Shown here: in pieces, positions 22,709 through 24,726 of the stretch
Numbering within the stretch: position 1 is the first letter of the stretch
Layout: each line of letters starts with the position of its first letter
From: Candidatus Peribacteria bacterium
GTDB lineage: Bacteria > Patescibacteriota > Gracilibacteria > Peribacterales > Peribacteraceae
DNA length: 39,352 nt
NCBI GenBank assembly: GCA_028286915.1
Contig: JAQBQQ010000014.1
Location: 1 to 39,352 of the forward strand
Direction of reading: 5' to 3'
Program-made: the position numbers and the translations under genes
Notes under the pieces: model-generated
The model's input: the letters and a program-made list of their open reading frames with translations, nothing else
Database searches by the model: none
What the model was told of the DNA's origin: nothing

Positions 22709-23795
22709 ATGGAAGAACTGCTGCAAAAATTACAGGAATTGCACTCAGCAGTAAGCCAGGGCAAGGACTCTCTTTGAGGCCCACGGCATTCCGCAGCACA
22801 TCAAAGAGCTGGAAATACAAACCGAAGACCCCAATATCTGGAGCGACAACCAGGCGGCGCAGGTGCTATTTGGCAAACTGAAAATTCTACGCAAACAGTG
22901 GGAGCCTATACATTCGGTCTACGAAGATGCCAATGCATTACTGGAGATGGCGGCGCAGGCGACAGAAGACGATGTACCGGCTTTCCAGAAAGATTACGAC
23001 AGCATTGCCGCACGCTGGAGCACGCTGGAAACACAGCTGTATTTAGGCGGCGAGTTTGATGCGGGCAATTGTTACCTGTCCCTTACCAGCGGCGCCGGCG
23101 GCACGGAGGCGCAGGATTGGGCGTCCATGCTGGCACGCATGTATGTGCGCTACTGCGAACGCCAGGGCTGGCAGGCGAATATTCTGGAACGGACCGATGG
23201 CACGGAGGCGGGCATCAAGTCTCTTACCATTCATATTGTCGGCGATATGGCCTACGGAAATTTAAAGTGTGAACGCGGCACGCACCGCCTGGTACGGCTC
23301 TCCCCTTTCAATGCCAAGAGTCTGCGCCAGACAAGCTTTGCGCTGGTGGAAGTGCTGCCGGAAATTACGGAGACCGATGAAGTGGAGATTAACCCCAATG
23401 ACTTACGCGTGGATACGTATCGCAGCGGCGGTGCCGGTGGCCAGCATGTGAATAAGACTGACAGCGCCGTGCGCCTGACACATATTCCAAGCGGCATAGT
23501 GGTTGCCTGCCAGACCGAACGCAGCCAGATGCAGAACCGCGCCCAGGCCATGAACATGCTGCGCGCCAAACTGTTGGAAAAAAAGCGCGCCGAAGATGCC
23601 GACCAGAAAAAAGAATTGAAAGGCGCCACCAAGTCCGCTGATTTCGGCCAGCAGATACGCAGCTATGTCCTGCACCCGTACCAGATGGTAAAAGACTTAC
23701 GAACCGATACCGAAACGAGTGATACAGCCGGGGTTTTGGATGGCGATATTCAGCAGTTTATTGACGCGGAATTAAAGAGAGAGGCGAGCCTGTAG
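22709..23795 (+). CDS. prfB: Peptide chain release factor 2 with programmed +1 frameshift
   Basis: RF2 ends translation at UAA and UGA. The frame-0 start (ATG 22709) runs 22 codons to an in-frame TGA at 22775-22777, preceded by CTT. A +1 slip on CTT-T restores the long frame from GAG at 22776, giving LEAHGIPQHIKELEIQTEDPNIW and the rest of RF2. Downstream motifs are HRLVRLSPFN (SPF tripeptide) and SGGAGGQHVNKTDSAVRLTH (catalytic GGQ). A weak SD-like AAGGA (22763-22767) lies upstream of the slip site, farther away than in Escherichia coli. The site is autoregulatory: low RF2 favours the frameshift. The frameshift-corrected length is about 360 residues. Confidence 0.95.
22763..22778 (+). promoter_or_regulatory. 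prfB programmed frameshift site
   Basis: AAGGA, a short CTCT spacer and CTT-TGA-G. The UGA is read by RF2 itself, so frameshift efficiency reports RF2 level. The SD element is weaker and 1-2 nt farther from CTT than the usual AGGGGG-TAT-CTT arrangement. Confidence 0.9.
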
Positions 23796-23934: not shown

Positions 23935-24420
23935 TTAATCTTTAGCCGTATGTCTTGGCGTACAAAAGAGACATGCAATAAGAAATATAATCAAAAATAG
24001 GCCGTAAACGATAAAAAACACTGAAGGATCATTTACAATTGGATGAAGCTCGGGAGTGCAGGCTAGTGGCGTATTGATAAAAAATCTCTGAATAAAATTA
24101 CCAGCCGAACCTCTGGCATCACCACAATCTCCAATATTAAACAACAAAGCAGATAGCTGACTGATGAAAACAATGAAAAGAAATATTTTATGAATAAATA
24201 TAAAATGCACGCCTGCTATGTATCGTATGCCGCAGATAGCAAATAGGAAAACAGTAATCACTCCAGCGATACCTAATCCACTTAATCCTTCCAAGATAGA
24301 AGTCCATCCGCCACTTGTTATATAGAATAGGAAGACGCTCAATAAGCTATACACAATAAATCCAATAATAAAAACCCATGATTTTATTTTCCACCAAGTA
24401 TTATTCAAGTGCATGCACAA
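23935..24420 (-). CDS. Small polytopic membrane protein, unknown
   Basis: No family is recognised. The 161 residues contain four hydrophobic segments: about 13-34, 45-67 (LSGLGIAGVITVFLFAICGI), 72-93 (FIFIHKIFLFIVFISQLSALLF) and 133-152. A loop between the third and fourth has Cys and Gly-rich GDCGDARGSAG. Composition is AT-rich compared with neighbours. It lies just after the histone gene terminator on the same strand. The MCMHLN start at 24420 overlaps the region right after that terminator, and no SD is visible. Start choice is uncertain. Confidence 0.6.
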   Translation of the reverse strand: MCMHLNNTWWKIKSWVFIIGFIVYSLLSVFLFYITSGGWTSILEGLSGLGIAGVITVFLFAICGIRYIAGVHFIFIHKIFLFIVFISQLSALLFNIGDCGDARGSAGNFIQRFFINTPLACTPELHPIVNDPSVFFIVYGLFLIIFLIACLFCTPRHTAKD

Positions 24421-24440: not shown

Positions 24441-24468
24441 CTAAAAAAACCGACCCTTACGGATCGGT
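24441..24468 (-). terminator. Intrinsic terminator of the histone gene
   Basis: On the minus strand ACCGATCC pairs with GGGTCGGT (24461-24468 with 24449-24456, one G-U pair) around GTAA, followed by a run of seven T. Confidence 0.88.
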
Positions 24469-24494
24469 CTCTTTGTAAGAATGAACGCGGAGGA

Positions 24495-24665
24495 CTAAAG
24501 GTCTTCTGGGCGTACAGTCTTGCGGCCGTTCTTGGTGGCACGGTCAGCAGCCTTCTTGATAGCTTCCTCGAGGAAAGCGGATGCGGCCTCTGGGAAATCA
24601 CCAGCGGTCATCATGTCGTGCTTCTTCAGAAGCTCTTTGATCGCAGATGCGACAACGTAACTCAT
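24495..24665 (-). CDS. Single-domain bacterial histone (histone-fold DNA-binding protein)
   Basis: This 56-residue protein begins MSYVVASAIKELLKKHDMMT, continues AGDFPEAASAFLEEAIKKAA and ends DRATKNGRKTVRPEDL. It has the helix-strand-helix-strand pattern of a histone fold without tails: a short alpha-1, a long central helix, and the loop-2 signature GRKTVRPEDL (R-K-T then x-x-x-D), as in archaeal histones and small bacterial histones such as Bdellovibrio Bd0055. It likely dimerises and binds or bends DNA as a nucleoid protein. It is basic, monocistronic, and has a promoter (TTGCGC-16 bp-TAGAAT) and a strong terminator. No SD precedes the start; the leader is pyrimidine-rich. Confidence 0.85.
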   Translation of the reverse strand: MSYVVASAIKELLKKHDMMTAGDFPEAASAFLEEAIKKAADRATKNGRKTVRPEDL

Positions 24666-24698
24666 AAAAGATGAGAGAAAAGAATAAAGACAGAATTG

Positions 24699-24726
24699 AT
24701 TCTAGATATGCCTAAACGATGCGCAA
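24699..24726 (-). promoter_or_regulatory. Promoter of the histone gene
   Basis: -35 TTGCGC (24721-24726), a 16-bp spacer and -10 TAGAAT (24699-24704) give a leader of about 27 nt. The stretch from 24727 to about 25030 shows no gene or RNA that I recognise. Confidence 0.55.

Follow-up and report, generated by a model that had tools for sequence, protein, structure and literature searches.

A Tail-Less Histone of Probable FtF Type Co-occurring with HU in Candidatus Peribacteria

1. Introduction

To our knowledge, bacterial histones have come to be known only recently, and the experimental work on them concerns two proteins, HBb and HLp. HLp is the face-to-face (FtF) histone of Leptospira perolatii (PDB 9QT0-9QT2), whose tetramer wraps about 60 bp of DNA; its residues R49, N53 and R55 lie in the tetramer interface, and R55 and D62 form the RD clamp (PMC12701072). 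The positions of HLp that contact DNA are A13, S14, K15, K17, K21, T27, G29, T56 and T57.

The main text of a 2024 survey (PMC11390915) describes an alpha3 histone family with a short alpha2 (4-5 residues shorter than in nucleosomal histones), a one-turn alpha3 helix cut to 3-4 residues, and an RxTxxxxD motif. FtF histones are marked there by two residues of the dimer-dimer interface, R48 and N52 in HMM numbering, besides R54, T56 and D61, and the HBb-type bacterial dimers are without R48 and N52. The same text names Spirochaetota, Planctomycetota, Bdellovibrionota and Myxococcota as the bacterial phyla with FtF histones, and describes the bacterial forms as usually bearing tails, mostly basic ones, and the archaeal forms as without tails. 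Two further reports bear on what follows: bacterial histones reportedly do not conserve the R-T "sprocket" pair of archaea (PMC10627809), and bacterial DUF1931-like doublets are reported to be without DNA-binding residues (PMC13088155).

2. The Histone Gene and Its Transcription Unit

The window, by which we mean the whole stretch of 39,352 nucleotides analysed here, contains a histone open reading frame of 56 codons on the minus strand at 24495-24665, with its ATG at 24665 and its TAG at 24497-24495, and the encoded protein is MSYVVASAIKELLKKHDMMTAGDFPEAASAFLEEAIKKAADRATKNGRKTVRPEDL. The frame appears in an ORF listing made at a 45-residue limit; an earlier note on this DNA had given exactly these coordinates, and the strand is the minus one, the plus strand read over 24495-24665 yielding unrelated sequence only. 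The protein is also tail-less, as that note had it, in that the start codon stands a few residues ahead of the first conserved position and the same Met starts all close relatives. There is one copy in the source genome (1.43 Mb in 48 contigs). When the window gene is compared with ten relatives, the mean differences at codon positions 1, 2 and 3 are 8.4, 8.1 and 29.3, a pattern that shows purifying selection on the protein. The features of the locus are as follows:

24721 to 24726, minus strand: -35 hexamer TTGCGC, with CTTGC conserved in relatives (comparative promoter scan; exact match in the window)
24699 to 24704, minus strand: -10 hexamer TAGAAT (comparative scan; nearly all relatives have this hexamer or TACAAT)
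24666 to 24692, minus strand: putative 5′ leader of about 27 nt, pyrimidine-rich and without a Shine-Dalgarno motif (start site placed by its spacing from the -10 hexamer)
24495 to 24665, minus strand: histone gene, tail-less alpha3 (predicted FtF-type) single histone fold (ORF, Pfam, PDB matches, AF2, Foldseek)
24443 to 24474, minus strand: intrinsic terminator, a GC stem followed by a T tract (hairpin energy -19.3 kcal/mol, z -5.2)
22863 to 23795, plus strand: prfB, peptide chain release factor 2, a convergent conserved neighbour outside the histone unit (Pfam PCRF and RF-1)

In the relatives, the promoter consists of CTTGC, then TA(G/C)AAT 16-18 nt past the -35 hexamer, and then 28-35 nt to the ATG. 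Of the 39 distinct upstream regions in Peribacterales, 38 have this arrangement in its general form (TTG-N16-18-TANNNT, 28-35 nt ahead of the ATG), as do 5.6% of shuffles. In the window 16 nt separate TTGCGC (24726-24721) from TAGAAT (24704-24699), and there is no second instance of the combined pattern in its 39 kb. It was comparison across loci that found this promoter, which a generic sigma70 scan of the window did not pick up because its -35 element is TTGC and not TTGACA. On the 3′ side, the hairpin at 24474-24443 is followed by a T run, and a terminator-like hairpin is kept in 35 of 39 relatives. The earlier note's proposal of a monocistronic gene with a promoter and a terminator of its own is borne out.

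The leader carries pyrimidines at 18 of its last 20 bases (15-19 of 20 in relatives), and a Shine-Dalgarno motif ahead of the histone gene was found in none of the 39 distinct Peribacterales upstream regions. HU genes from ten genomes of the order have a CTTG-type box, a related -10 element and a leader of the same kind, and this promoter type, common to histone and HU, supports high expression without proving it. That the histone is an abundant nucleoid protein, as the earlier note had suggested, would fit this strong-looking, conserved promoter and the precedent of HLp and HBb.

Several observations concern translation initiation more broadly. A Shine-Dalgarno-like motif precedes 4 of the 29 window ORFs of at least 150 residues, and the histone and HU genes (HU loci L158-L167) share leaders of about 25 nt that are pyrimidine-rich and lack the motif, together with the CTTGC promoter type. 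The 16S rRNA 3′ tail reads GGAACA(T/C)(T/C)TCC... in place of GGATCACCTCC (L168:1440-1530, minus strand, in the window's genome; L169-L198), and CCTCC is found in only one of 31 such tails. The residual CTCC or TTCC can pair with GGGAG or GGGAA just downstream, with covariation from C-G to T-A, so that the anti-Shine-Dalgarno is degenerate and perhaps masked in a hairpin if the mature rRNA includes the pairing partner.

A prfB homologue adjoins the histone gene in nearly all Peribacterales loci compared, and in about eleven of these PolX lies upstream of the histone gene. A hydrophobic ORF of 161 residues (23935-24420, minus strand) lies between the histone gene and prfB in the window; it has no Pfam match and is absent from the recurring neighbours in the loci of the compared relatives.

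3. Fold and Class

The window histone matches Pfam PF00808 (CBFD_NFYB_HMF) at 22.7 bits against a curated cut-off of 21.4, and an NCBIfam search returns a weak archaeal-histone match (17.5 bits, cut-off 50). By sequence, its best match in the PDB is HLp (9qt0, E = 3.4e-4), with HBb/Bd0055 of Bdellovibrio next (8fvx, 5e-3; 8cmp, 6e-3) and HTkC of Thermococcus also present (9f2c, E = 0.015). An AF2 model built on a 38-row alignment (pLDDT 90.8) contains two longer helices, residues 3-15 and 24-45, followed by a single turn of a third at 53-55, and it superposes on HLp over its full length of 56 alignment columns. Foldseek against the PDB likewise places HLp at the top (TM 0.91), then HBb (TM 0.83) and HTkC, and after them NF-Y, TAF-like and nucleosomal histones. 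The histone fold read from the letters in the earlier note thus stands, with a profile score above the Pfam cut-off and a predicted structure that matches solved histones, and the R-D clamp it looked to is present as the pair R48-D55. Its pointer to Bdellovibrio holds as far as a bacterial histone goes, but HLp is the nearer type by both sequence and fold.

The features of the alpha3 family can be found one by one. DSSP applied to the AF2 model gives HHH at 53-55 and then the C-terminus, and alpha2 (24-45) has 22 residues, which counts as short by the difference from nucleosomal histones given in the survey (PMC11390915). D23, R42, N46, R48, T50 and D55 do not vary across the alignment of 38 sequences; R48, T50 and D55 make up the RxTxxxxD motif, and R42 and N46 occupy the same columns as the interface residues R49 and N53 of HLp. 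As a set, R42, N46, R48, T50 and D55 correspond to R48, N52, R54, T56 and D61 of the FtF HMM (an offset of six) and to R49, N53, R55, T57 and D62 of HLp (plus seven). The helix-1 lysine of FtF histones (HMM K16) is K10 here, kept in at least 90% of the 38 sequences.

The other histone types fit less well. R42 and N46 are present and HLp ranks above HBb, at odds with a bacterial dimer of the HBb type; a tree of 57 columns is too short to resolve depth. Nucleosomal histones (HMf/HTk) have an alpha3 of about 10 residues and a four-helix-bundle tetramer, whereas here alpha3 is three residues long and the chain stops at 56; DUF1931 pseudodimers have two folds per chain, whereas the 56 residues here make one. 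Since R42 and N46 are missing in the Bdellovibrio-type dimer, the window histone belongs most naturally with the FtF histones, which are tetrameric and wrap DNA. The assignment to the tetramer rests on residue identity and uses the FtF motif as a proxy only, because HTkC forms the ring with a glutamate at the N46 column of the alignment, so that the asparagine is not an absolute requirement. The window histone and its close relatives have no tail, unlike the usual bacterial FtF histone.

4. Distribution and Co-occurrence with HU

The histone was found in 68 of 74 Peribacterales genomes and in 55 of the 57 good ones. In the two good genomes without it, the adjacent prfB is missing from one (G050, with no true match and only 41% identity) and truncated in the other (G061, where the match ends at residue 244 of 310); loss of the histone from these two was considered and is weakened by this, the locus probably falling in an assembly gap in both. 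On this count the histone is a core gene of Peribacterales and not an isolated occurrence. Nearly all of the closest relatives come from assemblies named Ca. Peribacteria or Peregrinibacteria, with a few under general labels only, and the next closest in GTDB genomes come from Diapherotrites (Iainarchaeota) archaea, at about 43-61% identity. On one contig labelled "Euryarchaeota archaeon ARS80" (L029, NYYK01000002.1) the histone does not differ from the one in Ca. Peribacter UBA2144 (L028) and has the same prfB neighbour; the genome so labelled is probably mis-assigned. Five divergent Peribacterales histones (L118, L119, L120, L121 and L123) end in KENKRQTVY(A/G)CDC, have lost the RP of loop 2 and carry cysteine for the terminal leucine, and their function may differ.

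For a phylum-wide search PF00808 proved too weak a probe, with 2 of 380 genomes above its cut-off, and the 38-row profile was used instead. It matches 28 of the 380 genomes, 16 of them Peribacterales and one from another family of the class, the rest chiefly from two distant families; among 242 genomes sampled across the class there are 46 matches, 43 of these from the window genome's own family. Outside Peribacterales, then, the histone is scattered in Patescibacteria. In the tree the distant patescibacterial histones group with HLp (99/82), apart from the Peribacterales set, and one patescibacterial row (L152) sits within the Peribacterales group; this indicates two or more separate lineages of histones in the phylum. 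The data are compatible with one Peribacterales clade (p-AU 0.40), 57 columns being too few to order the deep branches, archaea included. The HLp-like histones of other patescibacterial families (L153-L157), which group with HLp, have NKRTTVKPQD or NKRSTVKPQD loops.

HU, as one gene, is encoded in 67 of the 74 genomes of the order, the window's own included. A replacement of HU by the histone, which has been suggested for Leptospira, is rejected on these numbers, and the histone is therefore an addition to HU. A literature search on histones in Peribacteria, Peregrinibacteria and Patescibacteria returned nothing relevant. The FtF-type histone is already known, and the main text of the surveys does not name Peribacteria as a carrier; the range of FtF histones in bacteria is extended past the phyla named in that of 2024.

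5. Doublet Histones

Four loci encode two alpha3 folds in one chain, each a tandem with RKTV loops in both halves:

L113, 1939 to 2295, plus strand: doublet alpha3 histone
L114, 2943 to 3299, plus strand: doublet alpha3 histone
L115, 2782 to 3138, plus strand: doublet alpha3 histone
L151, 1257 to 1619, minus strand: doublet alpha3 histone

The carriers are three Peribacterales genomes (G018, G040 and G073; 119 residues) and one of a second family of the class (G428; 121 residues), and the order-wide and phylum-wide searches report no separate singlet histone in them. In the AF2 model (pLDDT 92.6, pTM 0.85) the doublet forms an intact pseudo-dimer of histone folds; single halves lie 0.8 Å rmsd from HLp (TM 0.95), and the whole chain gives a TM of 0.67 with the Methanopyrus pseudodimer 1f1e. 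In the Peribacterales doublets the FtF arginine has been lost from the first half and is kept in the second only. DNA-binding loops in both halves set these apart, as a distinct kind of doublet, from the DUF1931-like ones, which are reported to lack DNA-binding residues, and they are more unusual than the singlet histone itself. We hold it possible, and advance it tentatively, that Peribacteria vertically kept a tail-less FtF histone as a core chromatin protein beside HU and that in several members the singlet was replaced by a doublet. If true, bacteria would here have a counterpart of the passage from homodimeric to heterodimeric histones, one separate from the DUF1931 doublets.

6. Proposed Mode of Action and Alternatives

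The reading we consider likely is that of a tail-less FtF alpha3 histone, a predicted DNA-wrapping tetramer that is made constitutively and serves as a second core chromatin protein beside HU. The 56-residue chains would pair through the handshake of the histone fold, and two such dimers would close into a ring with R42, N46 and R48 at the two dimer-dimer interfaces; the doublet AF2 model supports the dimer level only. The ring would wrap about 50-60 bp of DNA with no sequence preference, through predicted contacts in loop 1 (T20, G22), loop 2 (K49, T50) and helix 1 (S7, K10, K14). Its supply would come from a constitutive one-gene transcript read from the gene's own sigma70-type promoter, and the protein would then act beside HU. 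We infer dimer and tetramer formation, DNA wrapping and abundance alike.

There are competing readings. HBb comes second in the structural comparison (TM 0.83), matches in sequence (E about 5e-3) and shares GRKTV in loop 2 with the window histone, likenesses that would suit the Bdellovibrio-type mode (HBb/Bd0055), in which separate dimers bend or coat DNA; this is nevertheless quite improbable, given that such dimers do not have the R48/N52 pair (PMC11390915) and HBb has S and D at the columns where R42 and N46 are invariant in 38 sequences, and that HLp outscores HBb in both sequence and fold. One may also picture a specialised, non-packaging role, for example in local regulation or as a partner in DNA repair, with low expression and with HU packing the bulk of the DNA. 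The presence of HU in 67/74 genomes, the low net charge of the window histone and the survey's point that prokaryotic histones need not all be global organisers lean that way; the monocistronic unit with its conserved, strong-looking promoter of HU type, single-copy retention across the order in genomes of about 1-1.5 Mb, and the high expression of FtF relatives where measured, less so for HTkC (main text of PMC11390915), make it unlikely. That the frame is a chance ORF of histone-like composition could be argued from its 56 codons and absent Shine-Dalgarno motif, and is vanishingly improbable in view of the codon-position pattern (8.4/8.1/29.3), the Pfam and PDB matches, the occurrence in 68/74 genomes, the conserved promoter, and the general lack of such motifs in the window (4/29 ORFs of at least 150 residues with one). 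Judged by comparison among relatives, the ORF is a real gene and chance is excluded.

7. Comparison with Known Histones

The DUF1931 pseudodimeric bacterial histones (PDB 1WWI, 1R4V; PMC13088155) share a bacterial histone fold and serve as a comparator for the doublets; they differ from the window histone in having two folds per chain and reportedly no DNA-binding residues, where it has one fold and keeps the residues. HBb/Bd0055 of Bdellovibrio bacteriovorus (PDB 8CMP, 8FVX; PMC10627809, PMC11317129) has a like short alpha2 and one-turn alpha3, and its loop 2 GRKTV and RD clamp recur in the window histone; it is unlike in missing the FtF arginine and asparagine and in its lower sequence and fold scores. 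HTkC and the archaeal FtF histones, including those of Iainarchaeota/Diapherotrites (PDB 9F2C; main text of PMC11390915), are similarly tail-less single folds with a truncated alpha3, whereas the window histone has a bacterial host and belongs to a coherent lineage that spans the order and has a start of its own, MSYVVAS.

The closer functional model, as far as residues and fold can tell, is HLp and not the Bdellovibrio histone. HLp is the best sequence match (36% identity in the structural alignment) and the best fold match, shares the R/N/R tetramer residues and the RD clamp, and equals the window histone in core length once its seven disordered N-terminal residues are removed. Seven of its nine DNA-contact positions are identical in the window histone, the exceptions being K15, which is A8, and T56, which is K49; the net charge of the window histone is +0.6 at pH 7, with nearly all relatives higher, and this low charge together with the replacement of a contact lysine by alanine is why its DNA affinity may be modest. 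It differs from HLp in having no N-terminal tail and in co-occurring with HU, which Leptospira lacks (PMC12701072). An order of the candidate phyla radiation with a minimal 56-residue FtF histone beside HU thus offers a natural comparison set of singlets, doublets and charge variants, and because the window protein corresponds to the ordered core of HLp alone, what the N-terminal tail contributes to DNA wrapping becomes directly testable.
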